Shown piece after piece: positions 15,832-30,799 of a stretch of 35,717 nt of DNA. The notes below the pieces were generated by a model. It was not told the DNA's origin. It made no database searches and saw only the letters and a list, made by a program, of their open reading frames with translations. Each line of letters opens with the position of its first letter. Position 1 is the stretch's first letter. The position numbers and the translations under genes are program-made. The stretch comes from Oscillospiraceae bacterium (GTDB lineage Bacteria > Bacillota > Clostridia > Oscillospirales > Ruminococcaceae). Location of the stretch: assembly GCA_018434245.1 (NCBI GenBank), contig JAHDPQ010000061.1:1-35717 (forward strand), in the 5' to 3' direction.

Positions 15832-15852
15832 AATATAGGATCGTCCTATATT
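15832..15852. promoter_or_regulatory. LysR-type regulator box 1 (patB-like/tct unit)
   Basis: AATATAGG-ATCGT-CCTATATT is an eight-base perfect inverted repeat around a five-base centre, containing ATAGG-N5-CCTAT and the T-N11-A pattern of LysR sites. It lies between the citXG stop and the promoter at 15784-15812. The same box occurs at 21120, 22277 (one mismatch) and 30785. Confidence 0.75.
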
Positions 15853-15863
15853 CTTACCTCAGT

Positions 15864-17285
15864 TCATTGCGTTTGGCTGTCCTGTTTCCGCAAATCATTG
15901 GTATAAAAAAGGAGAAAAAAAGCCACCGCAAGCAAATCCGCAGAGCCACCGGGACTGGCCCAAAGCTCCACCAATTCCCGATTCATCTCCTCCAACCCAT
16001 TGATATAGCGATTGGGATGGGCCTGCTTAAGCAATTCTACCGCCTTTTTTTGAACCATATGGAGCCCGTCCGGCCCGTTGCGATGCAATAGGTTGGTATC
16101 CTCAACACAGGCAAGCAAATGCAACAGGGCTAGACACCCGCTATCATTCGGATGCTCTTCGTCTAAAAAAGGAAGCGCGTGTTCTACAGCGTCCCGAAAA
16201 CCAGTGGCTGCCTGACCACGGGCACCCAGTACTCCATAGCACTGAAAAGCCCGTTCTCCATGGGATGAGGAAACGGTAAGATTCTGTTTTTCTAAATCGG
16301 TTAGAGCAAATGCTCCCAGCTGGGAACAACATTGAAGCAGGGAAGCTAGACTTAACTCCTGCCCGTCCAAACACTCCTTGTTCACCCGCAAAGTCTTCGC
16401 ATACAGGCAACCGGCTGCCACACAAAGCAGCCCCAAGGAAAAGACTAAGCCTTTGTGAGTGTTGACACCTCCTGTGGCGTCAAACATCATATCTTCTGCC
16501 ATCTGCCCTTGGTATCTTGCTTTTTGGAACAAGAGTCGGGGCGGTGTATCACAATGATTGCTCCCCAACAGGCAAAGCGTGCGAAACTGTGATGCCAGTA
16601 CAGATGTGCTGTCCAAAAAGGTATAGAAGTCCATGTCCTTGTGAGCACCGTTCCCCATGCGGTCAACCAGTCCAGGTTTTGGCGTGACCGAAACTTCGTA
16701 TAACAAAGCCCGGACGGCAAAAGATGCTATTTTCTCGGCATGCTGCTGGTAAAAATAACATTGCATCCATTCTACCGTATGCCGTTGCAGCTCATCCACC
16801 GAATGGGAGCGGCTTCGCCCACAGTCTGCCGCCGCCTTTTTGCAGATTAGGCAGGAACGTTCCGGCAGCCCCAGCTGTGTGCGGGAAATCTTTCGTCCAC
16901 CGCAATCCAGCAAATCAAGATCAAAAAAGCGCCCCAGCGGACAGTTTTCCTCCATTTCACAGAGGATGCGTTTTATATGCCGTGCATTGCCGCCAACCAC
17001 AAAGTAAGCAGTCTCTCCGGTTTTAGGCCCTTCTGTTTCGGAAGCCGAAACGGCTATGCCGGCCCTGTTTAGGCGAAGCATCAGCAGCTTGCAGCCTTCC
17101 ATGAACGTGTTTTTCGCCAAAGGGAATACCTTGTGCGGACCAGCGATATTCAGAGAAAAGCTGATTAGGTGCATCCCTGGGAAGCGATCCAGAAGCTCTT
17201 GCTGTTTGTTTGCACGATGTTCCCTTGCCGCCAGCATTTCCCCCAAACTAACCGAGTTGCTGCCCAAAAACTCCGCCTGATTCAT
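15864..17285 (-). CDS. citXG: CitX-CitG fusion: apo-citrate lyase transferase plus triphosphoribosyl-dephospho-CoA synthase
   Basis: A 473-residue bifunctional protein. Residues 1-170 are CitX: LDRFPGMHLISFSLNIAGP and HKVFPLAKNTFMEG, then LGRFFDLDLLD and CLICKKAAADCGRSRSH. Residues about 185-465 are CitG: ALLYEVSVTPKPGLVDRMGNGAHKDMDFYTFLDS and FDATGGVNTHKGLVFSLGLL. CitG makes 2'-(5''-triphosphoribosyl)-3'-dephospho-CoA from ATP and dephospho-CoA; CitX transfers it to the serine of CitD. The fused form is known from other bacteria. The start at 17285 follows GGAGGGGG and overlaps citC by four bases (ATGA). It is the last gene of the citrate-lyase unit. Confidence 0.94.
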   Translation of the reverse strand: MNQAEFLGSNSVSLGEMLAAREHRANKQQELLDRFPGMHLISFSLNIAGPHKVFPLAKNTFMEGCKLLMLRLNRAGIAVSASETEGPKTGETAYFVVGGNARHIKRILCEMEENCPLGRFFDLDLLDCGGRKISRTQLGLPERSCLICKKAAADCGRSRSHSVDELQRHTVEWMQCYFYQQHAEKIASFAVRALLYEVSVTPKPGLVDRMGNGAHKDMDFYTFLDSTSVLASQFRTLCLLGSNHCDTPPRLLFQKARYQGQMAEDMMFDATGGVNTHKGLVFSLGLLCVAAGCLYAKTLRVNKECLDGQELSLASLLQCCSQLGAFALTDLEKQNLTVSSSHGERAFQCYGVLGARGQAATGFRDAVEHALPFLDEEHPNDSGCLALLHLLACVEDTNLLHRNGPDGLHMVQKKAVELLKQAHPNRYINGLEEMNRELVELWASPGGSADLLAVAFFLLFYTNDLRKQDSQTQ

Positions 17286-18265
17286 TGGCCACCCCCTCCC
17301 TGCAAAAAGCGAAAGGTGCAATCGGGTACCAGCGGGCGAAGTTCCGCCATCCGCCCCTGCGAAAATAAAAGACGCACTCTGCTGGCACTGACAGCCTGGC
17401 TATCCACAACAAACCGCGGGCGTTCTATCACCTCAATGCCACGAGCCGGCAGGTATTCCTTCATTTGCTGATGATATCGGCGGGTTACGGGGCAAAAGGG
17501 TTCGCTTCCGATATAGCGTCTGGTAATTCCAAGGGGATGGGCAAAATGTTCTGCAAAAACCTGCAGATCCAGCTCGCTGTTAAAGGCAGCAGCCTGCTTC
17601 TTCTCTTTGATAAAATAGGTGGGAAATGTTGCGGAGGAGATCAGGTAATCCCCAGTGGGATGCACACAAAGATTGGATAAATGCATGGTTCCTTCTCGAA
17701 CCAGCCGCAAGCGGTCCCCAGACGAAAAAGTGCTTTTTTCTTCTGACACTACCAATATATATATATATCCACACTCTTTGGCGGCAGATTCTATCAGACG
17801 AAGATGTCCCATGGTAAAGGGATTGCAGTTAACCACCATGGCACCCACAGGTTTTGCCCGGGTTTTGGGAATTGCCGAGACAAATCTTGCGATGCCGTCC
17901 CGTTCATCTTCCATCAGTAAAACATGGTCTGTCTGAGCCACTGGATAAAAACCCAGGGAGCCAAAACGCCTGCGCTGTTCCGGCTTGGTATATAAGAAGA
18001 GATGGGATCTTCCCCGCCTGACACCTTCCATCTTGAGCTCCGTGACCAGCCTGGCTGCCAGCCCCTCACCCTGACAATGATCGGACACCGCAATGCACTT
18101 TAGCACATTGTCCTGCAGGGAACCGCTGGCAACGATCCTGTCCTGTTCCAGAAAATTAACGGTATATTCAGCGCCGGTGTCGTATTCCAACTCCATGGAC
18201 TGAAGAAAGGCTTTGGTTGCGTCCAACCTGCTCCCCCTCATGGGAGCACCACATTCCATTTCCAT
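17282..18265 (-). CDS. citC: Citrate lyase ligase CitC (acetate:SH-citrate lyase ligase)
   Basis: A 327-residue protein that acetylates the thiol of the CitD prosthetic group with ATP and acetate, activating citrate lyase. Residues about 30-130 form a GNAT-like domain (IAVSDHCQGEGLAARLV, FLYTKPEQRRRFGSLGFYPVA). The rest is a nucleotidyltransferase domain starting at AMVVNCNPFTMGHLRLIE, where the MGH is the nucleotide motif, then ILVVSEEKSTFSSGDRLRLV and ISSATFPTYFIKE. The end VSASRVRLLFSQG is also typical. The ATG at 18265 is preceded by a weak GGCGGCGG-type site, 21 bases after the citF stop. Confidence 0.93.
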   Translation of the reverse strand: MEMECGAPMRGSRLDATKAFLQSMELEYDTGAEYTVNFLEQDRIVASGSLQDNVLKCIAVSDHCQGEGLAARLVTELKMEGVRRGRSHLFLYTKPEQRRRFGSLGFYPVAQTDHVLLMEDERDGIARFVSAIPKTRAKPVGAMVVNCNPFTMGHLRLIESAAKECGYIYILVVSEEKSTFSSGDRLRLVREGTMHLSNLCVHPTGDYLISSATFPTYFIKEKKQAAAFNSELDLQVFAEHFAHPLGITRRYIGSEPFCPVTRRYHQQMKEYLPARGIEVIERPRFVVDSQAVSASRVRLLFSQGRMAELRPLVPDCTFRFLQGGGGQ

Positions 18266-18286
18266 ACCACCGCCGCCTTTCCTCGG

Positions 18287-19822
18287 TTAGTCGCAAACCT
18301 GCCGAATTAGATCGATCATGGAACCATCCCGGTAGGTGACGATCCCAACCACCTTGTCGGTATATTCAATGGGATCGGGGATACCCACAATGGCCTCCGC
18401 TTTTTTCTGCAATTCTTCAATGGTATAGACGGGGATCCCCGCTTCCTGAATGCGGCGGCAGAGATTTTTTCTTCGCGGATTAACGGCAACCCCCTGATCG
18501 GTCACCACCACATCCACTACCTTGCCGGGCGTTACAACGGTGTTCACCTGACGCACCACACAGGGAATTCTCCCTCGTGTCAGGGGGCATACCACAATGG
18601 CTACCGATGCGCCATAAGCCGTGTCCGGATGCCCGCCGATGGCCCCGCGAATGACGCCATCCGACCCGGTAAGTACATTGACATTAAAGTCACAGTCTAT
18701 TTCCAGTGCGGAAAGGACAACAATATCAAGCTGATTGACGGCGGTGCCTTCGCTGGAGGGGCTGGCATAACAGGAGGCGGAAATCTGCTGGTGAAAACGA
18801 TTGTTCTTCAAAGATTCAGCAGCCCTCAAGTCAAAGGATTGCACATCCAGTATTTTTTGGATCAACCCTTCCTCATACAAATCCACAATGGAGCCGGTGA
18901 TGCCCCCTAACGCAAAGCTGGCTGTGATTTGATCTCTCAGCATTTTTTCCCGCAAAAAACGGGCAACTGCCAAGGAGGCTCCTCCAGAACCCATTTGAAT
19001 GGAAAATCCATCCTGAAAATGGCCGCTGGCTTCAATCACATTGGCGGCGGTTTGGGCAATGAGCAGTTCCTTTGGGTTTTTGGTAAAGCGGGTGGCCCCG
19101 GACATAATGCCTGCCGGGTCTCCAATTTCCGGCACTTTTACGATATAATCCACATCCGATTCTGGAATTCCAAAGGGTGCATTGGGATAGGAGACAATAT
19201 GGTTGTTTAGAATAATGGTCTTGTTTGCGTATTGTGCGTCACACTTGGCATAACCCATGGAACCGCACATAATGCCGCCTTCCACATCCCGGCTGTATCC
19301 GTTGGCATTGCCGTAAGGGTCACAGGACGGTGCCCCTAAGAATGCCACATCAATGGGCAGCTCACCGGTTTCAATGGCATAGGCGCGCCCCCCGTGGCTG
19401 CGAAAAACAACCGGAACCTCCATCAGACCGTGGGAAATTTCCCGGGCCAGTTCTCCCCGCAGGCCACTGGTTTCGATGCGGCGGATCACTCCGTTTTGAA
19501 TATGCTTGATGAGCGGCGCATGACAATCCGAAAGAGAGGAGGCTGCCAGTACCAGGTCACGAAACCCCATTTCTGCCAGCTTGTCCACAACCATATTGAC
19601 AATATAATCTCCATTGCGAAAATGGTGGTGAAAAGAAATCGTCATGCCGCTTTTCAGGCCGGTCAAACGGACCGCTTCTTCCAGGCTGGGGATAATTTTA
19701 TTGTGTAATTTTTCGCGTTCTGCCAGAGTGTGGGAGTTTTTGTTGAGGCTATCCGGATGAAAAACCTTATGTATATTTCCAATCTCCTCCAGATACGGAA
19801 CGTCCTGTAACTGTATTGCCAT
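18287..19822 (-). CDS. citF: Citrate lyase alpha subunit (citrate:acetyl-ACP transferase)
   Basis: A 511-residue protein of full family length. It exchanges acetyl for citryl on the CitD prosthetic group. Recognisable stretches are GLKSGMTISFHHHFRNGDYIVN near residue 57, FLGAPSCDPYGNANGY, FSIQMGSGGASLAVARFL and GGHPDTAYGASVAIVVCPLTRGRIPCVV near residue 415, ending with a CoA-transferase-like region VVVTDQGVAVNP. The ATG overlaps the citE stop by one base (TGATG) and follows GGGGGAGAG, indicating coupled synthesis of equal amounts. Confidence 0.96.
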   Translation of the reverse strand: MAIQLQDVPYLEEIGNIHKVFHPDSLNKNSHTLAEREKLHNKIIPSLEEAVRLTGLKSGMTISFHHHFRNGDYIVNMVVDKLAEMGFRDLVLAASSLSDCHAPLIKHIQNGVIRRIETSGLRGELAREISHGLMEVPVVFRSHGGRAYAIETGELPIDVAFLGAPSCDPYGNANGYSRDVEGGIMCGSMGYAKCDAQYANKTIILNNHIVSYPNAPFGIPESDVDYIVKVPEIGDPAGIMSGATRFTKNPKELLIAQTAANVIEASGHFQDGFSIQMGSGGASLAVARFLREKMLRDQITASFALGGITGSIVDLYEEGLIQKILDVQSFDLRAAESLKNNRFHQQISASCYASPSSEGTAVNQLDIVVLSALEIDCDFNVNVLTGSDGVIRGAIGGHPDTAYGASVAIVVCPLTRGRIPCVVRQVNTVVTPGKVVDVVVTDQGVAVNPRRKNLCRRIQEAGIPVYTIEELQKKAEAIVGIPDPIEYTDKVVGIVTYRDGSMIDLIRQVCD

Positions 19823-20715
19823 CAGATCTCTCCCCCTTCTCTGAGCACGCCCACGGCCCGTGCCAAATCCAGCGTGCGCTGTGCCCGTGCCACAACGGGC
19901 TTATCGATCATTTTGCCGTTGAGTGCAATTACGCCAGATCCTTTGCGATGAGCTTCTTCTATGGCATCCACAATATCCAACGCCTTTTGAATATCCTTTT
20001 GAGAAGGGGTATACACTTCATGAACGGTCTTAATCTGGCGTGGGTTGATGATGGATTTTCCATCAAAGCCCAGCTGGTGAATCAGCTCCACCTCTTGGCG
20101 AAACCCTTCTTCGTTGTTGATATCGCTATACACCGTATCAATGGCATCAATGCCGGCTGCTCTGGCCGCCAGAAGAATCATACTGCGCCCAAACAGCAGC
20201 TCGATCCCGTCGGGAGAGCGCCTGGTTTTGAGGTCGGTCACATAATCTTCGGCCCCAAGTGCAATGCCCACCAGCCGTTTGCTGGAACATGCAATCTCTT
20301 TTGCATTGAGCACTCCTGCTGCACTTTCAATTGCTGCCATCATCTTGGTGGAGCCTGCCGGTATTCCGTTTTCTGCTTCAATGCGCTCAACTTCCTGTTG
20401 GCAGACCAGTACATCCTGAGCATTTTCCGTTTTAGGCAGACGGATAATTGCTTTTTGTGTCCGCACGATGGCTTCCAAATCATCGATTCCACATTTGGTT
20501 GTGGGGTCATTTACCCGCACTACCAGCTCCTTGCTGCCATAATCTATGGAGCACAGGGCCTGATACACAAGGAAGCGAGCTGCGTCTTTTTCCAGAACGG
20601 AAACAGAGTCCTCCAGATCAAACATGATACTGTCCTGATCGTATATACCCGCATCTTTGATCATACCAGGCTGGTTTCCTGGTACAAATAGCATAGTTCT
20701 GCGCAATTGTCTCAT
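19822..20715 (-). CDS. citE: Citrate lyase beta subunit (citryl-ACP lyase)
   Basis: About 297 residues of the HpcH/HpaI-CitE TIM-barrel family. It cleaves citryl-ACP to oxaloacetate and acetyl-ACP. Landmarks are RRTMLFVPGNQPGMI at the start, SIMFDLEDSVSVLEKDAAR near residue 32 (metal-binding acid), LVVRVNDP, GLALGAEDYVTDL-like residues (VGIALGAEDYVTDLKTRR) and FDGKSIINPRQI near the end. The start at 20715 gives an ATGA overlap with citD and a GGGGAG site; the upstream ATG at 20733 would lie inside citD. Confidence 0.95.
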   Translation of the reverse strand: MRQLRRTMLFVPGNQPGMIKDAGIYDQDSIMFDLEDSVSVLEKDAARFLVYQALCSIDYGSKELVVRVNDPTTKCGIDDLEAIVRTQKAIIRLPKTENAQDVLVCQQEVERIEAENGIPAGSTKMMAAIESAAGVLNAKEIACSSKRLVGIALGAEDYVTDLKTRRSPDGIELLFGRSMILLAARAAGIDAIDTVYSDINNEEGFRQEVELIHQLGFDGKSIINPRQIKTVHEVYTPSQKDIQKALDIVDAIEEAHRKGSGVIALNGKMIDKPVVARAQRTLDLARAVGVLREGGEI

Positions 20716-21011
20716 TTTACCGCGTCTCCCCACCGGTAGGCCTGTTCACCACTGGCGCGGTAGGCCGCCGCTTTTACCCGCGCCTGAATGGCACAATCCA
20801 GTGCCCCCTTATCCACCGCACGAACTCGTGCATGACAAATCTCCAGTTCCTTGAGAGTATCCTCAATGGTTTTTCGAATCGCCTTGCCGTATTGTTTTTC
20901 CACCGTACTGTCCAAGTCAATCTCCATTCCCTTGCCGTCGTTGGGTGATATCGTCACCATGATATCGCTGGATTCCATGGTTCCCGCCACCGCGGTTTGT
21001 TGGATTTCCAT
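20712..21011 (-). CDS. citD: Citrate lyase acyl carrier protein (gamma subunit)
   Basis: A 99-residue carrier protein. The motif AVAGTMESSDIMVTI contains Ser14, the family's attachment point for the phosphoribosyl-dephospho-CoA group added by CitX and charged by CitC. FVENYGKAIRKT-like residues (VEKQYGKAIRKTIEDTL) and ALDCAIQARVKAAAYRA follow as usual. The ATG at 21011, about nine bases after AGAGAGGA, is chosen; a GTG at 21017 is an alternative with tighter spacing. It is the first gene of the citrate-lyase unit. Confidence 0.94.
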   Translation of the reverse strand: MEIQQTAVAGTMESSDIMVTISPNDGKGMEIDLDSTVEKQYGKAIRKTIEDTLKELEICHARVRAVDKGALDCAIQARVKAAAYRASGEQAYRWGDAVK

Positions 21012-21068
21012 TGCCACGAATCCTCTCTTTCTATATGTAATTCCTTTTTGGAGTTCGTCCTATTTTCC

Positions 21069-21097
21069 ATTCTATGTGGGTAGAAGTCATATGTCAA
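21069..21097 (-). promoter_or_regulatory. Promoter of citDEF-citC-citXG
   Basis: On the minus strand a perfect TTGACA (21097-21092), 17-base spacer and TAGAAT (21074-21069). The predicted +1 near 21062 gives a leader of about 50 bases and puts the LysR box centre (21127) at -65. A further half-site, ATAGG (21063-21059), overlaps the +1. Confidence 0.75.
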
Positions 21098-21119
21098 ATT
21101 GATATTGTAAATAAAAATT

Positions 21120-21134
21120 ATAGGTTTTTCCTAT
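21120..21134. promoter_or_regulatory. LysR-type regulator box 2 (citrate-lyase operon)
   Basis: Perfect ATAGG-TTTTT-CCTAT, centred at 21127, 65 bases upstream of the predicted start of the cit operon. It fits the T-N11-A rule. Confidence 0.75.
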
Positions 21135-21171
21135 TTTTTTAATCGACACTGTATCAAATAACTCCAAAGAA

Positions 21172-21203: not shown

Positions 21204-21253
21204 CTCTTTATAATTTATATTTTATCCATATTAGATGAACCTTTATTTTCTCG

Positions 21254-22198
21254 TTATCCCAAGTGTGTCAGCTGAAGATCAGTGTACAACTCTTCCAAAA
21301 TTTCCAAAAAGCTTTTGGCTGAGGAAGAAAGATAACCACTATTCAGATATGCGATTCCAATGAGCCATGGAACCTCCTGTTCCGGCTCCAAATAAAAATA
21401 TTCGGCGGAAAGCTTCTCTAGATCTTTGGGGAGATAAATTTCAGGAACCAATGCAATTCCAACTCCTGTGGCCGCAATTCGCTGGATGGTCTCAATATTT
21501 TTGGATTGCAATGCGATACAGGGAGTGATGCCTGCTTTGCGAAAAATGGCTTCTGCGCTTCTGCGGATGGATTGCCCCTGATTGCCAACGATAAAATCCT
21601 GCTTATCCGCATTGCGCAAATCAAAGTACCGTTTGCCATCTTTCTTGGTGTAGGCCAACTTGGCCAGCGGATGATTGCGCGAAACCAGCATCACCATTTT
21701 ACCGCTGAAAAAAGTCTTGGTATAAAGGCCGACACTTTCTACCGGCAGGGGCATAATAGCCAGATCAATGATTCCATTGAGGACCATATTTTCCAGCTCG
21801 CGGGAATTAGATTCATACAGTTGCAGCTTAATCCCCGGATAAAGCGCTTTGTAACGGGTCACGGCCTTGGGTACAAACACCGCCCCCAAATGATACGGCA
21901 TTCCCAAAGAAAGTGTTCCGCCCCTGAGCTGCTCGATATCTAGAATGCTGTTTTCCAGATCTCGCATGGCCTTCATAATTTTTTGGCCGGTTTCCAGAAA
22001 CATTTCCCCGGATTGGGTCAACTGCATACGATTTTTTACCCGATAAAAAAGGGAAGTGCCCATTTCCTCCTCAATTTTTTTAAGCGCCTGGCTGAGAGAA
22101 GGCTGAGCAATATAGAGTTGTTGGGCCGCTCTGGTAATATTCCCCTCTTCCGCAATGGTCAAAATATAATGAATTTCCCGCAGGCTAAGGTTCTTCAA
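21254..22198 (-). CDS. LysR-family transcriptional regulator of the tricarboxylate locus
   Basis: A 314-residue LTTR. Residues 1-60 hold the winged HTH (YILTIAEEGNITRAAQQLY, AQPSLSQALKKIEEEMG, LFYRVKNRMQLTQSG). The effector domain starts near residue 90 (GTLSLGMPYHLGAVFVP) with ELENMVLNGIIDLAIMPLP. The start is TTG at 22198 after GGAGAGGG. It lies between the citrate-lyase unit and the divergent prpD/leuCD/ybhJ operon. Its box overlaps its own upstream region (centre about -51), suggesting autorepression. It is presumably activated by a tricarboxylate, as CcpC-like and other citrate-linked LTTRs are; that is inference. Confidence 0.92.
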   Translation of the reverse strand: MKNLSLREIHYILTIAEEGNITRAAQQLYIAQPSLSQALKKIEEEMGTSLFYRVKNRMQLTQSGEMFLETGQKIMKAMRDLENSILDIEQLRGGTLSLGMPYHLGAVFVPKAVTRYKALYPGIKLQLYESNSRELENMVLNGIIDLAIMPLPVESVGLYTKTFFSGKMVMLVSRNHPLAKLAYTKKDGKRYFDLRNADKQDFIVGNQGQSIRRSAEAIFRKAGITPCIALQSKNIETIQRIAATGVGIALVPEIYLPKDLEKLSAEYFYLEPEQEVPWLIGIAYLNSGYLSSSAKSFLEILEELYTDLQLTHLG

Positions 22199-22239: not shown

Positions 22240-22268
22240 ATTATAGCACCTTCTAAAGTTTGCTACAA
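22240..22268 (-). promoter_or_regulatory. Promoter of lysR
   Basis: On the minus strand TTGTAG (22268-22263), 17-base spacer, perfect TATAAT (22245-22240), predicted +1 near 22233. The LysR box at 22277-22291 lies just upstream. Confidence 0.65.
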
Positions 22269-22276: not shown

Positions 22277-22291
22277 ATAGAAAAAACCTAT
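22277..22291. promoter_or_regulatory. LysR-type regulator box 3 (lysR / prpD intergenic)
   Basis: ATAGA-AAAAA-CCTAT, one mismatch from the consensus ATAGG-N5-CCTAT. Its centre (22284) is 65 bases upstream of the predicted prpD start and about 51 upstream of the predicted lysR start, the classical shared divergent LTTR arrangement. Confidence 0.7.
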
Positions 22292-22313
22292 ATTGAATAT
22301 CAAAGCTATGTAT

Positions 22314-22342
22314 TAGACAAATAGTATTGCAGCTTTTATAAT
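22314..22342 (+). promoter_or_regulatory. Promoter of the prpD-leuCD-prpD-ybhJ operon
   Basis: TAGACA (22314-22319), 17-base spacer, perfect TATAAT (22337-22342), predicted +1 near 22349, leader of about 37 bases. The imperfect -35 suits activator dependence. Confidence 0.7.
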
Positions 22343-22385: not shown

Positions 22386-23783
22386 GTGGATAACACGAAA
22401 TCTCTTTCCGAGCAAATTGCAGATTTTACACTGAATCTGCGTTTGGAACAAATTCCACCCGATGTGGTGAGCTTTGCAAAATGGCTGCTGTTTGACTCCA
22501 TTGGTGTGGCAATGTCCTGTCAGAATATGAAGCATGCAATTGCAGTGCGCCGGGCTGTTTTGGAAACAAATTCTCAGCCGGAATGCACCCTTTGGGGCAC
22601 CAGTAGCAAAGTACAGCTTGCCGATGCCGTTTTATATAACAGCTGTCTGATTCACGGTGCAGATTACGACGATACCCATGTGGGTGGCATTGTACATCCC
22701 AGTGCCGCTGTGATGAGTACAGCGATTACTGTCGGTGAAAAAGTGCAGGCCAGCGGGGCTCAGATGATGGAAGCCATGGTCGCTGGTTGGGAAGTAATCG
22801 TGCGCCTTGCATTGGCAGCAAAGGGGCGTTTTCACGATGTAGGCTATCACGGCTCAGGAATTGTTGCTCCTTTTGCCGCAGCCTGTGTAGCTGCAAAGCT
22901 ATTGGGGTTACCAAAAGAAACCTTAGTAAATGCTCTGGGCATTTGCGGAAGCCAGTCCGCTGCCTTGCAGGAGTTTTTGCATGACGGTACCTGGGTGAAA
23001 AAGATTCATCCCGGCTGGGGAGCCCACAGCGCCATTTATGCCCTAAACATGGCAAAGCACGGATTTACAGGCCCTCTGCGGGTATTTGAAGGCGAATTTG
23101 GCCTATGGAAAACTCACTTGGGTGCAACAGACGGGCTGGAGGAAGCCTTCCGCAATTTGGGCACAGTATGGCACACAACCGAAATTTCTTTCAAGATGTA
23201 TCCTGTTTGCCATATGACTCATTCGTTTATTGACTGCACCATTGATCTACTGCAGGAGCTTGGGTTGCCCGCGGACGAAATCGCTTCCATTGAATGCCGT
23301 GTTGATCCGCGCTACTATCCCATTGTCTGTGAACCTCGAAAGGCAAAGATTCGGCCCCAAACCGATTATATGATGCGGTTCAGTCTGCCCTATGTGGTTG
23401 CGGTTGCCGCTTACCAGCACAAGGTCAGTCCCTTTGAAGTGGATATGAAATATGCTCAGGACCCAAGCATCCTCTCCTTAATGAAGCGAATCCACTGCAT
23501 TTCCGATATGGAACAGCGCAATCCCGGCCATTTCCCGGGGTGGATCCAGCTGACCACACAGGACGGAAGAACTTATACCAGAGAGCAGCGGTACGAAATA
23601 GGCGCCTCGGAAAACCCGGTCAGTGAAGAAGCGGTCCGCATTAAGTTCCAAAATAATCTTTCTGCCTACTATTCTGAGGAAAAACGCCGAAAGCTGGTGG
23701 ATAAGATTTACGCATTCGACACACTGGCGCAAGCAGAGGAGCTATTGAATTGCTTAACAGCAGATCGGAAGATGGAGGAATAA
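22386..23783 (+). CDS. MmgE/PrpD-family protein 1 (2-methylcitrate dehydratase / aconitate decarboxylase-like)
   Basis: A 465-residue soluble enzyme of the MmgE/PrpD family, which includes 2-methylcitrate dehydratase and cis-aconitate decarboxylase. The active-site block IHGADYDDTHVGGIVHPSAAV at residues 89-109 keeps the paired Asp and the HPS; GYHGSGIVAPFAAACVAAKLL and KKIHPGWGAHSAIYAL supply further His/Lys candidates, and YPVCHMTHSFIDC follows. The start is GTG at 22386, nine bases after AAAGGAG. It is the first gene of a LysR-box operon and is separated by four bases from the LeuC-like gene. A dehydratase, isomerase or decarboxylase acting on a tricarboxylate is expected; the exact reaction cannot be told. 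Confidence 0.9.
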   Translation: MDNTKSLSEQIADFTLNLRLEQIPPDVVSFAKWLLFDSIGVAMSCQNMKHAIAVRRAVLETNSQPECTLWGTSSKVQLADAVLYNSCLIHGADYDDTHVGGIVHPSAAVMSTAITVGEKVQASGAQMMEAMVAGWEVIVRLALAAKGRFHDVGYHGSGIVAPFAAACVAAKLLGLPKETLVNALGICGSQSAALQEFLHDGTWVKKIHPGWGAHSAIYALNMAKHGFTGPLRVFEGEFGLWKTHLGATDGLEEAFRNLGTVWHTTEISFKMYPVCHMTHSFIDCTIDLLQELGLPADEIASIECRVDPRYYPIVCEPRKAKIRPQTDYMMRFSLPYVVAVAAYQHKVSPFEVDMKYAQDPSILSLMKRIHCISDMEQRNPGHFPGWIQLTTQDGRTYTREQRYEIGASENPVSEEAVRIKFQNNLSAYYSEEKRRKLVDKIYAFDTLAQAEELLNCLTADRKMEE

Positions 23784-23787
23784 TGCG

Positions 23788-25047
23788 ATGGGACAAACGT
23801 TAGTAGAAAAGATTCTCAGTGAAAAAATGCAACGGCAAGTCAAGGCAGGGGAAACCATTGTAGTTGATGTTGATTTTGCGGCTTTGCACGATGGTTCCGG
23901 TCCGTTGCTGGTACGCCTGATGAAGGAGCGCGGTTACGACGGCGACCCGGTATTTGACGCTTCCCGTGTTTTGTTCGCCAATGAATTCGGCCCTGTACCC
24001 ACCCGGGAGATTGCAAACGAACATGCTCTTTGCCGCAGTTACGCAGCCGAAAAAGGTTGCCACTGGCAGGAAGGAGGCACCGGCCATGTACACGCCCACG
24101 TTTACGAGACTCATCTCAAATGTGGTTCTGTCTGTATTGTAGGAGATTCCCATACTACGATACACGGTGCCTTCGGTTGTTTTGCTACAGGCTGCGGTTC
24201 CACCGATATGGTTGCCGTAACCCGCTTTGGAAAAACATGGGTCAAGGTACCGGAGACCTTTCGAATCAATGTAACAGGAAAACTGCAGGAAGGCGTTTAC
24301 TCCAAAGATATTATGCTAAAGCTGGCCAGCATTATCAAATCGGATCAGGCAATTTATAAATCCCTGGAATTCCGGGGAGACACCATCTCTTCTTTGAGCA
24401 TGGACGGGCGACTTACCATTACCAGTATGGGGGTTGATGTCGGTGCCAAATGCGCCATTATGGAAACCGATAACCATACCCTGCAATTCTTACAGCAGAT
24501 GGGCCGCCCCCATGATTACCGTGAAATCCGTGGAGATGAAGACGCCCATTACGAGCGCGTGATTGATATTGACGCCACCAAGCTGGAAGCGCTGGTCTCC
24601 ATGCCTCACTATATGGAAAATGTAGAGCTTGCCAAAAATTGCAGCCAGCAAAAGGTCAACATGGTTTTTATCGGAAGCTGCACCAATGGCCGTGTAGAAG
24701 ATATGCACATTGCCGCCGAAATCCTGAAAGGTAAAAAGGTAGCTCCCGGCGTGCGTCTGCTGGTTATCCCCAACTCTACTTATGTATATAAGGAATGTAT
24801 GCGCGACGGCACACTGCTCGCTCTTGCCGAAGCCGGCGCCATTATCGAAGCCCCCAACTGCGGCCCCTGCATGGGTGTGCATCAGGGAATTCCCGGTGAC
24901 GGCGAGGTGGTGCTTGCTACACAAAACCGCAACTTTAAGGGCCGTATGGGTAACCCCAGCGCCAGCATCTACCTGTCCAGCCCGGCAACAGCAGCTGCAA
25001 CCGCACTGACCGGATATATTACAGATCCCTGCGAGGTTATGGGGTAA
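23788..25047 (+). CDS. LeuC/homoaconitase-type dehydratase large subunit
   Basis: A 419-residue aconitase-superfamily protein. GDSHTTIHGAFG lies at 119-130. The [4Fe-4S] cysteines are Cys298 (IGSCTNGR), Cys358 and Cys361 (NCGPCMG). QNRNFKGRMGNP near residue 380 is the C-terminal signature. Where LeuC proteins have the active-site dyad in FDHNVP, this protein has FANEFGPVP (residues 63-71), so a substrate other than isopropylmalate is likely. It works with the small subunit encoded next (25082-25588) to move water on a citrate-, aconitate-, citramalate- or homocitrate-like acid. The start has GGAGGAAT upstream. Confidence 0.92.
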   Translation: MGQTLVEKILSEKMQRQVKAGETIVVDVDFAALHDGSGPLLVRLMKERGYDGDPVFDASRVLFANEFGPVPTREIANEHALCRSYAAEKGCHWQEGGTGHVHAHVYETHLKCGSVCIVGDSHTTIHGAFGCFATGCGSTDMVAVTRFGKTWVKVPETFRINVTGKLQEGVYSKDIMLKLASIIKSDQAIYKSLEFRGDTISSLSMDGRLTITSMGVDVGAKCAIMETDNHTLQFLQQMGRPHDYREIRGDEDAHYERVIDIDATKLEALVSMPHYMENVELAKNCSQQKVNMVFIGSCTNGRVEDMHIAAEILKGKKVAPGVRLLVIPNSTYVYKECMRDGTLLALAEAGAIIEAPNCGPCMGVHQGIPGDGEVVLATQNRNFKGRMGNPSASIYLSSPATAAATALTGYITDPCEVMG

Positions 25048-25081
25048 GGCAGGCTGATATTATAGAAAGGGAGCTGAAAAT

Positions 25082-25588
25082 ATGATTCGTGACCATATCA
25101 CAGGGAAAGCATGGAAATTCGGCAGCAATGTCAGCACCGATTCCATCGCACCGGGACGCCTGATCTCTCTGCGCGCCAACCCGAAGGAATACGCAAAGCA
25201 TGTGCTGGAGGATGCTCGCCCGGAGTTTGCCAAAGAAGTACAGATCGATGACTTTATTGTGGCCGACCGAAATTTCGGTTGTGGCTCCAGCCGGGAGATT
25301 GCACCGATTATCATTAAACTGGCGGGGGTGGGCGCTGTTCTCTCCAAATCCTTCGGGCGCATTTTTTACCGCAACGCCATCAACAATGGAATGTTGTTGA
25401 TCGAGTGTGATACCGATCAGATCGCGGAAGGGGACACGCTATTCATTGACCTGAAGAAATGCGTAATCCAAAAGAAAAACGACCCTGCCTTTTCGATGCC
25501 TTTTACCCTTTCGGAAAAAGAAATTAAAATTGTCAGCGAAGGCGGACTTTTAAACTACATCGAAAAATACAAATCCCTTGATATTTAG
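25082..25588 (+). CDS. LeuD/homoaconitase-type dehydratase small subunit
   Basis: A 168-residue swivel domain. The substrate loop NVSTDSIAPGR lies at 16-26 and the catalytic FGCGSSREIA at 65-74 (LeuD usually has SREHA). KSFGRIFYRNAINNGML near residue 98 is the other signature. It completes the active site of the large subunit encoded 34 bases upstream. The loop differs from true LeuD (DTD.I.P), again suggesting a non-leucine role. The ATG follows GGGAG. Confidence 0.93.
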   Translation: MIRDHITGKAWKFGSNVSTDSIAPGRLISLRANPKEYAKHVLEDARPEFAKEVQIDDFIVADRNFGCGSSREIAPIIIKLAGVGAVLSKSFGRIFYRNAINNGMLLIECDTDQIAEGDTLFIDLKKCVIQKKNDPAFSMPFTLSEKEIKIVSEGGLLNYIEKYKSLDI

Positions 25589-25609
25589 TTGTTGGTATTA
25601 CCACTCTCA

Positions 25610-25639
25610 GATTCCTGCCGGAACATTCCGGCAGGAATC
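25610..25639 (+). terminator. Strong intergenic hairpin inside the operon
   Basis: A perfect 13-bp inverted repeat (GATTCCTGCCGGA / TCCGGCAGGAATC) with an ACAT loop lies behind the small-subunit stop and before the second prpD gene. No T tract follows, so partial attenuation or mRNA 3'-end protection is more likely than full termination. Confidence 0.65.
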
Positions 25640-25669
25640 ATCATTCTAAAGGCAAAGGAGCAGATACGA

Positions 25670-27034
25670 TTGCACGATCTGGAAAAACTGGCTCGGTTTT
25701 CTTCTTCCCTGCGTCTTTCCGCTGTTCCGCAGAACACCCTGGGCGCTGCCCGATTATGCGTACTCGACACCATTGGCTCCGCATTGGGTGCTGCAAACTA
25801 CGAAGAGATTCCCTGTCTTTTTCAGGAGCTTCAACACTGGGATGGCGCCTGCTCCCTGTCTGCTTGGGTGTGGGGGCACAGGGAGCAGGCAGGGGCTTTT
25901 CCTGCTATGTTGTTAAACGGTATTATGGCCCACGCCCTGGAGCTGGATGACGTCCACACTGGTTCCAAATCTCACATTGGGGCCGTTGTGGTTCCCGCTG
26001 CCTGGACCATGGCAGATGCGCTTGGGCGGTCCGGCGCAGCGTTTTTGGAGGCTGTCATTGCAGGTTACGAAGTGATGGCCCGCATTGGAATGGGGATGGA
26101 TGTCTCCAGCAACCGTAAGCGCGGGTGGCATACCACCGGCATTATTGGAACCTTTGGCGCAGCGGCGGCAGCCTGCCATCTGCTCCGGCTGGACTGGCAA
26201 AAAACCCTCTCGGCTTTTGGGATGGCAGGCACTCAGTCTTCGGGGTTATGGGCCTTTTTGGCGGAGGGTTCCACCTGTAAAAAACTGCATCCTGCACGGG
26301 CAGCTGTCAACGGGGCCATTTCGGCTGTTTTGGCAAAAGGCGGCATGACCGGACCTGCCGGTATTCTGGATGCTCAGGACGGCGGGCTTTACCCTGCCGT
26401 CAGCGACTCATTTCAAATGAGCAAGGTGTCTGCCGGCCTTGGAGAAACCTGGGAGATCATGTATATTGATAAAAAGCCTTATCCCTGTTGCCGAACCACC
26501 CACCATGCCATCGACGCGGCTTTATCTCTGCGCAATACCCATGACTTCCGCCTTGAAGATGTTACTTCTATTTTGGTGGAAACTTACGAGGTAGGCGTTC
26601 TGCAGTGCGGATTTGAAAAGTATCCGGAAAGCCCTGTGGAAGCCAAATTCAGCATTCCTTTTACCTGTGCAGCCGCTCTCGTACACGGCAAGATCACCCA
26701 GGAAGAGTTTATGGAGGATGTGATTGCCGATCCATTGGTGAAAAAACTGGCCCAGTCTACCAAAGTGGTTGCAGACCCCCTGTTTAACAACCGGTATCCC
26801 ACACGCTGGGGAAGCAGGATGCATCTTATATTACAAGACGGCAAGGAGCTTATGTGCCAAGTGGATGATATGTCCGGAAGTATCAGGGCTCCTTTGAGCC
26901 AGCAGCAGGAAAAAGACAAATTCATGGGATTGGTAAAAGGGAATCTACCCGACACTCAGGCCAGCCAGTTGCTGCAGGACATTCTAACCATCGAAACCTT
27001 GCCCCGTCTTCCCGAGCTGCGTCGAAACGACTGA
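25670..27034 (+). CDS. MmgE/PrpD-family protein 2
   Basis: About 454 residues from TTG at 25670, nine bases after AAAGGAG; the longer upstream reading begins inside the hairpin region and is not supported. Family features are ARLCVLDTIGSALGAANYEE, MAHALELDDVHTGSKSHIGAVV, GWHTTGIIGTFGAAAAACHLL, KKLHPARAAVNGAISAVLA and YPCCRTTHHAIDAAL. Compared with PrpD protein 1, HPSAAV is replaced by HIGAVV after the Asp pair, so the two copies probably have different substrates or steps. It sits 16 bases before the ybhJ-like gene and is part of the same operon. Confidence 0.88.
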   Translation: MHDLEKLARFSSSLRLSAVPQNTLGAARLCVLDTIGSALGAANYEEIPCLFQELQHWDGACSLSAWVWGHREQAGAFPAMLLNGIMAHALELDDVHTGSKSHIGAVVVPAAWTMADALGRSGAAFLEAVIAGYEVMARIGMGMDVSSNRKRGWHTTGIIGTFGAAAAACHLLRLDWQKTLSAFGMAGTQSSGLWAFLAEGSTCKKLHPARAAVNGAISAVLAKGGMTGPAGILDAQDGGLYPAVSDSFQMSKVSAGLGETWEIMYIDKKPYPCCRTTHHAIDAALSLRNTHDFRLEDVTSILVETYEVGVLQCGFEKYPESPVEAKFSIPFTCAAALVHGKITQEEFMEDVIADPLVKKLAQSTKVVADPLFNNRYPTRWGSRMHLILQDGKELMCQVDDMSGSIRAPLSQQQEKDKFMGLVKGNLPDTQASQLLQDILTIETLPRLPELRRND

Positions 27035-27050
27035 AACAGGAGGTTTTTAC

Positions 27051-29339
27051 ATGATTCGTCTGATCGATTCTCCCCTTTGCTATGACCCTACAGGGACACT
27101 CGTCCCTATGCAAAGCAATCACACTCATCTGCAGGACGCCGTAATTGCAGGACGCGAAAACACCATGGCTTATCGCATTCTGCGCAAGCACAATACCGCT
27201 TCCGGCCCACAGATGCGGTTGAAGTTCGATTCCCTTATTTCCCACGATCTGACCTATGTAGGTGTTATTCAAACGGCTCGAGCAAGCGGCTTGCAGGAAT
27301 TCCCCCTTCCCTACGTCCTGACCAATTGCCACAACAGCCTTTGCGCTGTGGGCGGTACTATCAACCGGGACGACCACATGTTTGGGATGTCGGCCTGCAA
27401 AAAGTATGGCGGTATTTTTGTCCCGGCCAATCAGTCCATCATCCATTCCTATGCGCGGGAAATGCTCAGCGGCTGTGGCCGCATGGTGCTGGGGTCGGAC
27501 AGCCATACGCGATATGGCGCCCTGGGCACTCTGGGCATTGGAGAAGGTGGCGGAGAACTGGTCAAGCAGCTGCTTTGCCGCACCTATGATATAGAGCCGC
27601 CCAAGGTGGTGGCCGTCTGGGTAGAGGGAAGCCCCAAACACGGTGTAGGCCCTCAGGATGTGGCCCTTGCTCTGGTGAAAGCAGTGTTTGCAAACGGGTT
27701 TGTCAAAAACAAAATCTTAGAATTTATCGGCCCGGGAATTGCAAACCTTTCCATGGACTTCCGCAATGGCATTGATGTGATGACCACGGAAACCACCTGT
27801 CTTTCCTCCATCTGGGTCACCGACGAAAAAACCAAAAACTATTTTGCTGCTCATGGGCGGCTGGATGCTTATGCCCCGTTGTCTCCCGAAACGGGAGCCT
27901 GCTATGATAGTGGAGTGGTGCTGAATCTCAGTTCCATCGAGCCGATGATCGCGCTCCCCTTTCATCCCAGCAACGCTTTTTCCATACGGGAATTTCAGGA
28001 AAATGCTGCGGACATTTTGGCGGATGTGGAGCAAAAGGCACAGAAGCAAATCGAGCATCCTTCCCTGCATCTTGATCTGCGCTCCAAGTTGCACGGCGGT
28101 GCTCTGCGGGTGGATCAGGCAGAAATTGCGGGGTGCTCCGGCGGCAGTTTTGAGAATTTGATCAGTGCGGCACGGATTCTAAAAGGCAAAAGCATTCCCA
28201 ACGAGTTTTTTAGCATGAGCGTTTATCCGGCAAGCAACCCGGTTCTCATGGAGCTGGTAAAAAACGGAGCGGCACAGACTCTGATGGAGGCTGGCGTGGT
28301 TCTGAAGCCGTCATTTTGCGGGCCGTGCTTTGGCGCGGGGGATGTGCCCGCCAATGGCGCTCTTGCCATACGGCACACCACCAGGAATTTCCCCAATCGG
28401 GAAGGCTCCAAGCCAAAGGAACTGCAACTGGCCTCTGTTGCATTGATGGATGCCCGCTCCATTGCCGCCACGGCAGCAAACGGCGGATCCCTCACCTCCG
28501 CGGCAGACGTGGATTACGATGATTCCGAGCCAGTTTATCATTTTGATGGTACCCTTTACCGCAACAGTGTGTACAACGGCTTTGGGCAACCCACTCCCCA
28601 AGCCCCCCTTCACTTTGGCCCCAACATTACCGACTGGCCGGAAATGATTGCCCTGCCAGACAATATACTGTTGAAGGTTTGCTCGGTAATTGATGATCCC
28701 GTCACCACCACAGACGAGCTAATCCCTTCTGGGGATGCGGCTTCCTACCGCTCCAACCCAAAACGCATGGCCAATTTTACTCTGTCCCGCCGGGATCCTC
28801 AATATGTGGATGAGGCTCAGGCCTTTTGGCGGCTGGAACAGTTGCGGCAGGCCGGAACCTATACCGGGGAGTTGCTGGCCCTCTCCAAACTGGTTATCTC
28901 CGCTTTAGATAGCGTGGAAGAAATAGAGCGCTTCTTGCAATGCACAGGCCTTGGCAGTGTCATTTACGCCAACAGACCGGGGGATGGTTCTGCGAGAGAG
29001 CAGGCAGCCTCCTGTCAGCGGGTGTTGGGCGGCCTTGCCAATATCAGTGTAGAATACGCCACCAAGCGATACCGCTCCAATCTGATCAACTGGGGTATGC
29101 TTCCCTTCCTTGGGGATCAGGCGTTGGCTTACCTGTTACAAGCCGGCGATCTGCTGTTTTTGCCCAATATTCGACAGGCAGTTCTTTCCGAGCGCCAGCA
29201 GATAGAGGCCATTCTGATCCGAGACGGGGAAAAACAGCAGACCCTCACCCTGTCCCTTGATACACTTTCTGAGGAAGAAGCCTCTATCATTTTATCAGGA
29301 AGCTTGATTAACTATTACGCAAGCGCTTCTCAGGCATAA
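27051..29339 (+). CDS. YbhJ-like hydratase, aconitase superfamily
   Basis: A 762-residue single-chain protein combining the three catalytic domains and a C-terminal swivel domain, like E. coli YbhJ. GSDSHTRYGALGTLGIGEGG lies at 148-167. The cluster ligands are Cys362 in AGCSGGSFEN (instead of the SCTNGR form) and Cys423/Cys426 in FCGPCFGAGD. ALMDARSIAATAANGG near residue 468 and YRSNLINWGMLPF near residue 675 are also characteristic. YbhJ proteins are uncharacterised putative hydratases. Last gene of the LysR-box operon; the ATG follows GGAGG. It probably acts on a tricarboxylate related to that handled by the LeuC/LeuD-like pair. Confidence 0.9.
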   Translation: MIRLIDSPLCYDPTGTLVPMQSNHTHLQDAVIAGRENTMAYRILRKHNTASGPQMRLKFDSLISHDLTYVGVIQTARASGLQEFPLPYVLTNCHNSLCAVGGTINRDDHMFGMSACKKYGGIFVPANQSIIHSYAREMLSGCGRMVLGSDSHTRYGALGTLGIGEGGGELVKQLLCRTYDIEPPKVVAVWVEGSPKHGVGPQDVALALVKAVFANGFVKNKILEFIGPGIANLSMDFRNGIDVMTTETTCLSSIWVTDEKTKNYFAAHGRLDAYAPLSPETGACYDSGVVLNLSSIEPMIALPFHPSNAFSIREFQENAADILADVEQKAQKQIEHPSLHLDLRSKLHGGALRVDQAEIAGCSGGSFENLISAARILKGKSIPNEFFSMSVYPASNPVLMELVKNGAAQTLMEAGVVLKPSFCGPCFGAGDVPANGALAIRHTTRNFPNREGSKPKELQLASVALMDARSIAATAANGGSLTSAADVDYDDSEPVYHFDGTLYRNSVYNGFGQPTPQAPLHFGPNITDWPEMIALPDNILLKVCSVIDDPVTTTDELIPSGDAASYRSNPKRMANFTLSRRDPQYVDEAQAFWRLEQLRQAGTYTGELLALSKLVISALDSVEEIERFLQCTGLGSVIYANRPGDGSAREQAASCQRVLGGLANISVEYATKRYRSNLINWGMLPFLGDQALAYLLQAGDLLFLPNIRQAVLSERQQIEAILIRDGEKQQTLTLSLDTLSEEEASIILSGSLINYYASASQA

Positions 29340-29536: not shown

Positions 29537-30595
29537 TCAGACAAATGGATAAATTCCCGCAAACAGTTGAATCATGGTGGGCATAAAGGCCATGACGCAT
29601 ACATACCGAACGAGCTGCAACAGCATGACCGTGGAAGCATCTCCTCCCAATTCCAGAGAAATCAGCGCCATATCGGAAAGCCCGGCCGGAATGGAAGCAA
29701 ACAAGCTGGTAGGCAGGTCCAAAGAATTGGTCTTGTAAATAAAAAAGGCAAGGACATAGTGCATCACGACACAATTCAAAGCCACAAGTAATACCGGAAG
29801 CAACAGTGTATGGAGCTGACTAACATCCTCCATAGAGACGCCTGTTCCAATTACCGCCCCCGCACAAGCCTGCGCAAGCAAACGAAGGGATTTGGGAAGA
29901 TAGGCCTTGCCTGTTTTGATATGAAAGGCGGCGACAGCAAACATGGAAAACAGGATGGCTCCGGCGGGAAACCCCACAAGCTGTCCAATACCCCCGGATA
30001 TTGCGGCAATCAGCAAAGTTATGATAACGTTTTTGGAGGTATAAGCATCAGGTGGTTTTTCCGGGAGCGATTTCTCCTTAACCGGTATGGTTGTATCCTC
30101 CTTTTGCTTCGCCTTCCCGCAAATTCGGGCAGCCAGCTGCGGCAGCAGTAAAATGGCAATGAAGTAGCGAACCAGCTGAAGTGCTGTGGATTGAGTTGGA
30201 TTTGCCCCTACATCCAAGCTAATCATGGCAATATCGGACATCCCCCCCGGTACAGAGGAAAGAAGCGCTGTCGCAATATCCACCTCAGACACCATATTGA
30301 TGGTAATGCCGGTTAGAAAGCTAAAAAACACTATGCCCAAAAAGAGCTGTAAGGAGGGTTTTATCGTTCTTTTCAAGCCTTTTAAATCACTTTTGTTCAT
30401 TCTCTGTCCAATAAATCCACCGGCTACGGCTTGCACCCCAATCCTGATCCATCGGGGAAAATATCCAATTCCTGTCGTGATTTGGAACACTGCACTGAAT
30501 ATAAGGGATCCCACCATGGCTCCGGCAGGTATATTGCATGTATAAAATAGAAAGGAGCCGGTAAATGCAATAAGAACCGTAAGTAAACAATTCAT
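29537..30595 (-). CDS. AbrB-family membrane protein (putative transporter)
   Basis: A 352-residue membrane protein with about ten segments and an internal duplication: GVQAVAGGFIGQRMN and ALLSSVPGGMSDIAMISLDVG in the first half, LLAQACAGAVIGTGVS and SLFASIPAGLSDMALISLELGGD in the second. This is the AbrB (formerly ammonia monooxygenase) family of unknown transport function, not the DNA-binding AbrB. The start has only weak ribosome sites (AAAGAG ten bases away). A LysR box at 30785-30799 lies 66 bases before the predicted transcription start, tying it to the tricarboxylate genes; an exporter or alternative carrier for a pathway acid is a reasonable guess. Confidence 0.85.
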   Translation of the reverse strand: MNCLLTVLIAFTGSFLFYTCNIPAGAMVGSLIFSAVFQITTGIGYFPRWIRIGVQAVAGGFIGQRMNKSDLKGLKRTIKPSLQLFLGIVFFSFLTGITINMVSEVDIATALLSSVPGGMSDIAMISLDVGANPTQSTALQLVRYFIAILLLPQLAARICGKAKQKEDTTIPVKEKSLPEKPPDAYTSKNVIITLLIAAISGGIGQLVGFPAGAILFSMFAVAAFHIKTGKAYLPKSLRLLAQACAGAVIGTGVSMEDVSQLHTLLLPVLLVALNCVVMHYVLAFFIYKTNSLDLPTSLFASIPAGLSDMALISLELGGDASTVMLLQLVRYVCVMAFMPTMIQLFAGIYPFV

Positions 30596-30732
30596 TCCCC
30601 ATCAACTCTTTAAGATGCTGTAAAAGATACTGCATCCGCTTTATCCCAACGCAAAAAGAGCTGTCTTCTTCACCGCCTTCTCTGTATTTCCATCCGAAAA
30701 TATAATTTCAGCCGCTATTATGCTATAACGTT

Positions 30733-30762
30733 ATTATAGATGTAAGCACAGGGAGCTGTCCA
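30733..30762 (-). promoter_or_regulatory. Promoter of the AbrB-family gene
   Basis: On the minus strand TGGACA (30762-30757), 18-base spacer, perfect TATAAT (30738-30733), predicted +1 near 30726 and a long leader of about 130 bases in which no further element was recognised. Confidence 0.6.
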
Positions 30763-30784
30763 ATAGATAACATGCATACCCTTA

Positions 30785-30799
30785 ATAGGAGGAACCTAT
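30785..30799. promoter_or_regulatory. LysR-type regulator box 4 (AbrB-family gene)
   Basis: Perfect ATAGG-AGGAA-CCTAT centred at 30792, about -66 relative to the predicted start of the AbrB-family gene. The AGGAGG inside the box looks like a ribosome site on the plus strand, but no open frame follows it. Confidence 0.7.

Follow-up and report, generated by a model that had tools for sequence, protein, structure and literature searches.

A predicted LysR-type operator recurs at four promoters of a probable tricarboxylate regulon in an Oscillospiraceae bacterium

Contig JAHDPQ010000061.1 of an Oscillospiraceae bacterium, a stretch of 35,717 nucleotides (nt) that was analysed whole and is called the window here, carries four near-identical copies of a 15-base inverted repeat, ATAGGNNNNNCCTAT (ATAGG-N5-CCTAT), at a fixed distance upstream of four promoters and beside a gene, lysR, for a LysR-type regulator. 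An earlier note, made from the sequence alone, had pointed to these repeats; they are followed here through the assembly (3,112,904 bases in 185 contigs) and through relatives. The box pattern is real, and the regulon that it marks is new, belongs to a known kind and has an operator that is largely standard; as judged from the DNA, the genes of the cluster are very probably regulated together, as a single system of a well-known kind. In the reading that we favour, and hold with good confidence, the local LysR protein, whose binding, inducer and sign of control we infer, binds its own promoter besides the four and switches them in response to an inducer that we guess to be of the tricarboxylate type. 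What is new is the set of downstream dyads, the 22-bp rule, the box at all four counterparts in Marasmitruncus massiliensis and the place of abrB.

Box, promoter and spacing

The boxes (IR1, inverted repeat 1; pattern scan unless stated otherwise) and the promoters behind them (promoter scan) are, in window coordinates:

15835..15849, minus strand: IR1 box ATAGGACGATCCTAT of the patB-tct promoter, directly after the citXG stop
15784..15812, minus strand: patB promoter TTTACA-17-TACTAT, with TG before the -10
21120..21134, minus strand: IR1 box ATAGGAAAAACCTAT of the citD promoter
21069..21097, minus strand: citD promoter TTGACA-17-TAGAAT (citD-citE-citF-citC-citXG)
22277..22291, plus strand: IR1 box ATAGAAAAAACCTAT of the prpD promoter, also upstream of lysR (M. 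massiliensis counterpart at L036:9903, one mismatch)
22314..22342, plus strand: prpD promoter TAGACA-17-TATAAT (prpD-leuC-leuD-prpD-ybhJ)
30785..30799, minus strand: IR1 box ATAGGTTCCTCCTAT of the abrB promoter (a counterpart precedes the M. massiliensis ortholog)
30733..30762, minus strand: abrB promoter TGGACA-18-TATAAT (abrB-type membrane gene)
22240..22268, minus strand: possible lysR promoter TTGTAG-17-TATAAT, box centre at about -51 (-35 with 3/6 consensus bases)

As the earlier note had described, the copies at 15835, 21120 and 30785 are exact and the one at 22277 has a single mismatch. At all four promoters exactly 22 nt separate the box from the -35 hexamer, and the -35/-10 spacer is 17-18 nt. 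With +1 set 7 nt after the -10, which makes the starts predicted ones, the box is centred at -65 (citD, patB, prpD) or -66 (abrB), in agreement with the 65-66 bases originally given, and the features that had been invoked for a LysR-type operator, namely a T-N11-A dyad, a position near -65 and a divergent lysR gene, are all found, relative to these predicted starts. The claim that the box at 22277 also lies upstream of lysR holds too, 8 nt before the possible lysR promoter; M. massiliensis has a similar one, TTGCTA-18-TATAAT, at the same distance from its box. The promoter scan gave an alternative on the lysR strand, TTGATA-18-TATAAT at 22303-22274, with the box inside it, and no such TATAAT was seen at the counterpart position in M. 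massiliensis. Either candidate would fit autoregulation of lysR. Two hairpins lie near the boxes, one, from the terminator scan, in the stretch from lysR to the citD box (21165-21210) and one, found by eye, next to the abrB box on its far side from the gene (30838-30876); each would separate its box from neighbouring transcription.

A composite scan for ATA-N9-TAT followed at 21-23 nt by a sigma-A promoter returned exactly the four sites in the window and none else, and in 400 resampled windows it found a mean of 0.0225 sites and never more than one. The rule was drawn up after the sites had been seen, and the fair tests are therefore those in relatives. A gap of 22 nt is found at 4/4 window sites and at 3/3 of the M. 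massiliensis sites found first; it recurs in 13/13 tabulated sites (four in the window, four in M. massiliensis, four in genome G800 and one in genome G763), a table that omits an M. massiliensis site with a gap of 23 and whose entries beyond the first seven came from a profile or scan favouring 22-nt spacing.

Could the boxes be chance palindromes in AT-rich intergenic DNA? Two counts point that way: at up to two mismatches, 14 matches occur in the window where 12.7 would be expected, and in the whole assembly the exact pattern occurs at five places against four for the reversed control pattern, a total that is not enriched. Because two-mismatch matches occur at the chance level, only the exact and near-exact class, together with context, carries weight. 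In that class three of the five exact copies in the assembly sit in this one cluster, all intergenic, and where this window has three, 2000 Markov-resampled windows had 0.0225 on average and never as many as three; the promoter spacing is fixed, and conservation of the boxes in relatives, described below, speaks strongly against chance. On clustering, resampling and conservation we reject a chance origin, to which we give a negligible probability.

The genome scan for equally good copies elsewhere turned up just two more exact matches in 3.11 Mb, C17:3586 and C61:26064, within open reading frames of 72 and 83 amino acids (aa), with an integrase-like gene near one and a radical-SAM-like gene near the other (named by eye); both were rejected as operators for lying inside reading frames. 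A profile scan of the whole genome placed the four window sites, which were in its training set, at 46-57 bits and the next place at 18.9 bits (150 of 253 candidates scored). The earlier statement that the window holds no other copy stands as far as none has a good promoter at 22 nt, and fails in that copies with one mismatch exist at 14094 (in tctC) and 29900 (in abrB). Both are within coding sequence with a good promoter absent at the 22-nt distance, and they were rejected as operators.

Downstream dyads resemble the OxyR layout

When ATAG-N7-CTAT was slid along the 13 tabulated sites and matches were counted out of 8, the mean was 7.77 at the box itself (by selection), 5.23 at +22, 4.08 at +31 and 4.00 at +13, with the other printed offsets at 3.77 or less. 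For the +22 dyad (IR2) the shuffled mean was 2.51, and for the +31 dyad (IR3; 12 sites, -35 held fixed) it was 2.29; none of 5000 shuffles reached the observed value in either case, a significance that is overstated in that shuffling treats related sites as independent. In the promoter spacer conservation is confined to bases 2 and 3 past the -35 (A and T, 12/13 each), as IR3 would require. The operator layout is thus IR1 (ATAG-N7-CTAT) at -65/-66, IR2 22 bp downstream and ending at the -35, and IR3 31 bp downstream and covering the -35, with both 15-bp downstream dyads weaker than IR1 and IR2 stronger than IR3. These dyads, read from the DNA alone, add to what the earlier note had seen. Their positions, weak and overlapping, adjoining and over the -35, are:

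15804..15827, minus strand: IR2 15813-15827 and IR3 15804-15818, patB promoter
21089..21112, minus strand: IR2 21098-21112 and IR3 21089-21103, citD promoter
22299..22322, plus strand: IR2 22299-22313 and IR3 22308-22322, prpD promoter
30754..30777, minus strand: IR2 30763-30777 and IR3 30754-30768, abrB promoter

According to the accessible text of PMC5002191, OxyR at oxyS has dyads at -66, -44 and -35, each ATAG-n7-CTAT, OxyR is grouped with IlvY and CynR, and in this group IR1 and IR3 are the most conserved and IR2 the least; the OxyR motif is likewise given as two tandem ATAG-N7-CTAT in the available part of PMC8787470. The operator in the window resembles that of OxyR, so far as the former source describes it, in its 15-bp ATAG-n7-CTAT repeats, its three dyads at the same offsets (+22, +31) and its divergent regulator gene. 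It differs in that the regulator scores below the OxyR and CynR cut-offs and is without the conserved Cys pair, in its targets and in being reused at four operons. Because IR2 is here the stronger of the two downstream dyads, we do not file the operator as a member of the OxyR group, and it is, from its sequence, alike in layout only.

On this layout a mechanism can be proposed. The four boxes would each be the strong recognition site, IR1, in a LysR-type operator reused at four promoters, one of which also faces lysR, and the local LysR would bind each operator as two dimers. Following the published model for OxyR-group operators, LysR without inducer would sit on IR1 and IR3, covering the -35, and transcription would be low; with a tricarboxylate-type inducer it would shift to IR1 and IR2 and activate. 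From the box beside its promoter, lysR would also control itself. The regulon would then comprise uptake (patB-tctCBA), aconitase-, LeuCD- and PrpD-type enzymes, citrate lyase and the AbrB-type membrane protein.

Conservation in relatives and the identity of the regulator

The closest counterpart of the cluster was found in M. massiliensis, an isolated strain according to the accessible part of PMC9584879, on NZ_FYDE01000004.1 (locus L036), with a LysR 80% identical to that of the window and the same gene order; in both, lysR adjoins one box and separates two operons. There the citD and patB boxes are exact and the prpD/lysR box (L036:9903) has one mismatch, all with a gap of 22, and a further one-mismatch copy lies at 10832 within the lysR gene. 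The M. massiliensis genome has the exact pattern at two places, each within this cluster (control pattern, 3). A sequence-only profile built from the seven sites (four in the window, three in L036) was run over the window's own genome, M. massiliensis, G763 and G469, with 150 candidates scored in each out of 253, 644, 2198 and 864. In M. massiliensis it returned two sites outside its training set, one at 787187 (24.4 bits; ATAGGGAATTTCTAT-22-TAGACA-17-TATAAT) before the abrB ortholog (67% identical) and one at 789536 (22.2 bits; ATAGGAAAATCCAAT) before a TRAP-type permease gene that is divergent from a second LysR (38%). The box thus stands at all four M. massiliensis counterparts (citD, patB, prpD/lysR, abrB), twice exact and twice with one mismatch.

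The same profile found further sites in G800 (150 of 158 candidates scored), which has four LysR homologs (64, 52, 38 and 32% identical). These were ATAGGAATTTCCTAT upstream of patB-tct (31.3 bits) and ATAGGTGTGGTCTAT upstream of citD (22.8 bits; facing the 52% LysR), and at a contig end beside the 64% LysR there is an exact box, 22 nt and TAGACG, where the contig stops before any target gene. The abrB gene of G800 is located between prpD and ybhJ in the row leuCD-prpD-abrB-ybhJ, which fits abrB having its own box where it stands alone. The call for conservation in relatives is thereby answered by boxes at all four M. massiliensis counterparts and, in G800, before citD and patB and beside the closest LysR, and the linking of four units on both strands into one system is borne out by the shared box and spacing and by this conservation. 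A LysR-TRAP pair on contig C148 of G800 resembles the M. massiliensis locus L074. The composite scan of ten loci found seven expected sites, and none in L085 or L088.

Beyond these genomes LysR homologs were sparse. Among 40 relatives the best-scoring was 28% identical, with none above 39% among the matches listed. Samples of the order (394 genomes, E to 1e-55), the class (391, 1e-50), the family of G763 (22, 1e-45) and the phylum (398, 1e-55), which partly overlap and each include the window's genome or G763, brought in just two more, G469 (35%) and G763 (32%), and 149 genomes around M. massiliensis, itself included, added G800 (1e-45). The LysR locus of G469 has no box within one mismatch and no other window gene in 20 kb on one side, the contig ending on the other; a Synergistaceae locus (L037, LysR 24%) has tct genes and no box within one mismatch. 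In plasmids the best 20 of 42 LysR matches were at most 29.8% identical. On one contig of G763 lie prpD, ybhJ, abrB, citC and two genes that look prpF-like by eye.

How specific the box is was judged against 60 other genomes of the family, under stricter filters with at most 79 candidates scored per genome. Twelve of them had a profile match at E <=0.05, the best at 21.7 bits. Of 17 matches, 15 had loci that could be inspected, and a LysR gene adjoined five of these; three of the five align through the box and two only over the downstream part. Because control matches adjoin LysR genes, LysR promoters at large may share this layout; the spacing, perhaps a general feature of theirs, does not alone name the binder, and ATAGG is the specific part. 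The sites outside the training set compare with the control best as 24.4 (M. massiliensis abrB), 31.3 (G800 patB-tct) and 22.8 bits (G800 citD); the last and the TRAP site are barely above it, and the weight of these two, as of the G800 tctC site, comes from position, not score. LysR proteins 80, 62 and 51% identical to that of the window, with recognition helices alike by eye, go with ATAGG-type boxes; a 37% homolog faces ATAA-N7-TTAT, and the box that a 39% homolog faces is of ATAGG type, its gap being 23.

Several observations weigh against our reading. The composite scan gave a stray match at L040 (gap 21) and did not pick up the prpD site of M. massiliensis, a copy with one mismatch that ends in AAT; counted by eye, the gap at the TRAP site (L074:6524-9617) is 23; and a second M. 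massiliensis cluster, which has LysR (34%), abrB-like, tct, citDEF and ybhJ genes (L089:1-10400), yielded no box of this type to the same scan. In G800 the tctC site ATAAAAAAAACTTAT scores 15.8 bits, under the control maximum, and faces the 38% LysR, and in G763 the site before prpD, ATAGAAAAAAGCTAT-22-TTGGTA-18-TATAAT, has two mismatches and a low-ranking profile score of 9.2 bits. Besides the overstated shuffle significance noted above, the +13 offset (4.00) is about as high as IR3 (4.08), and the shuffle tests covered +22 and +31. Our confidence is tempered because the strength order of IR2 (5.23) and IR3 (4.08) reverses the published one of the OxyR group (PMC5002191, accessible text). Finally, similar profile matches stand beside other LysR genes, and the assembly holds nine LysR matches, that of the window included, any paralog among which could bind.

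These last two facts feed the alternative that the boxes are LysR-type operators used by one or more other paralogs, with the local LysR controlling only the prpD/lysR region; it draws further on the citD and tctC promoters of G800, each of which has an adjacent LysR of its own (52% and 38%). Set against it are the position of lysR, adjoining a box between two operons in the window and in M. massiliensis alike, and the next best LysR of the assembly (on contig C179), which faces a different, related box, ATAGC-N5-ACTAT, and we think this alternative rather improbable. That site (C179:29368-29432) lies in the divergent promoter of the C179 LysR and a dehydrogenase-like gene (by eye). An OxyR-type peroxide regulator adjusting Fe-S hydratase genes in oxidative stress through ATAG-N7-CTAT sites would account for the tandem motif (PMC8787470 and PMC5002191, in their available parts), but the local LysR reaches 105.9 bits against the OxyR cut-off of 329 (NF008361) and has a single Cys (227), as does the 80% M. 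massiliensis ortholog (51), and the genes behind the boxes are those for citrate lyase, a transporter and PrpD proteins; together these points, with no search of the genome made for OxyR itself, make a peroxide regulator very unlikely.

The remaining alternative differs from our reading only in the sign of control, the regulator being mainly a citrate-relieved repressor like CcpC of Bacillus. The citD promoter is near consensus (TTGACA-17-TAGAAT, 11/12), and CcpC, a LysR-type protein, uses a -66 dyad and represses citB until citrate is present (PMC8514465, accessible text); since a LysR protein with such a dyad can be a citrate-relieved repressor, the sign here may go either way. A CcpC family score of 96.4 bits against a cut-off of 400, a box with ATAG rather than ATAA, and the placing of IR2 against the -35, the activation position in the OxyR-group model, all argue the other way, and we regard repression as possible, though doubtful. 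As to family, the window LysR is a LysR-type regulator by PF00126 (HTH_1; 70.2 bits) and PF03466 (LysR_substrate; 128.6 bits), and it falls below every NCBIfam cut-off among 25 of 55 models listed. Membership was rejected for CcpC (NF058504; the box is ATAG...CTAT at all four sites, not ATAA...TTAT), OxyR (the Cys pair of the sensor domain is absent), CynR (NF008416; 139.7 against 277 bits), CidR (NF047520; 182.2 against 415) and GltC (NF053705; 171.5 against 350).

Genes of the cluster and meaning

The local LysR, which we prefer as the binder of the boxes, is listed here with its putative target genes:

21254..22198, minus strand: LysR-type regulator, 314 aa, probable binder of the boxes (Pfam HTH_1, LysR_substrate)
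15864..21017, minus strand: citrate lyase operon citD, citE, citF, citC and a citXG fusion (citF, citC, citXG by family scans; citD, citE by eye)
11282..15696, minus strand: PatB-like pyridoxal phosphate (PLP) enzyme, then tctC, tctB and tctA, tripartite tricarboxylate transporter (patB, tctA, tctC by family scans; tctB by position and eye)
22386..29339, plus strand: prpD1, leuC-like, leuD-like, prpD2 and ybhJ-like hydratase (family scans)
29537..30595, minus strand: AbrB-duplication membrane protein (PF05145/TIGR03082; family scans), with an inferred transporter role

Family scans recovered two MmgE/PrpD proteins, LeuC- and LeuD-type subunits, CitC, CitF, TctA, TctC and the PatB-like PLP enzyme. 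The CitG part of the fusion scores 264.9 bits, just below the cut-off of 272.3; the hydratase reaches 1157 bits against 641 with a model named only 'hydratase' (PRK11413), ybhJ being the earlier note's name for it. The nearest solved structures to the first PrpD are an IDS-epimerase and cis-aconitate decarboxylase, and the label prpD is therefore not to be taken as methylcitrate dehydratase. In the window two frames (14058-14471 and 13378-14058, minus strand) make up tctC, where M. massiliensis has one of 384 aa (L036:17714-18868); either the gene is broken or the split arose as an error of assembly or sequencing.

Elsewhere in the window, one frame at 8212-10461 (plus strand) unusually fuses a LacI-type DNA-binding regulator to a solute-binding domain (Pfam LacI, Peripla_BP, SBP_bac_1), and 362 bases of it (9757-10118) are repeated 8 kb away at 1399-1760, a gene fragment with 97.2% identity. 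At 30927-31502 (plus strand) there is an apparently truncated piece of a periplasmic binding protein gene. A phage-integrase-family frame stands at the contig end (34596-35717, minus strand); together with the patchy occurrence of the LysR in the sampled relatives, it may point to gene transfer.

A search for a published description of this regulon, judged by titles and abstract starts of the papers listed and with most subscription papers outside it, found none. E. coli YbhD is presumably encoded by a LysR gene near a ybhJ-type hydratase gene, and we know of no citrate lyase or tct genes in that neighbourhood. The available part of PMC9068703 lists YbhD with ybhH and ybhI; it also links the LysR-type regulator CitR (YbdO) of E. 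coli with citCDEF, as would be the case here. CitR differs from the present system, compared by description only, in that its reported chromatin immunoprecipitation-exonuclease (ChIP-exo) peak lies upstream of citR-ybdNM and it represses ybdNM. CcpC shares with the window system the LysR type, the -66 dyad and a tricarboxylate enzyme as target, as the accessible text of PMC8514465 has it, and differs in its ATAA/TTAT boxes and its citB target, where the window has citrate lyase and tct transport.

We also entertain, as a tentative extension that we would not yet bet on, that the operator, repeated at four operons under a fixed rule of 22 bp, is the mark of a tricarboxylate fermentation module as yet undescribed. 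The two PrpD, the LeuCD-type and the YbhJ-type enzymes might feed citrate lyase, the AbrB-type (PF05145) and PatB-type proteins might be working parts, and the regulator might sense the substrate of the module (aconitate, tricarballylate or a methylcitrate-like acid), not citrate.

What had been a loose gene neighbourhood becomes, in our reading, one testable regulon, and the box at all four M. massiliensis counterparts makes the prediction testable in an isolated strain. The rule of dyad, 22 nt, -35 and weaker downstream dyads helps in finding such operators in related Clostridia. The regulon also ties PF05145, a membrane family of which little is understood, and paralogs of the PrpD family to the use of tricarboxylates.

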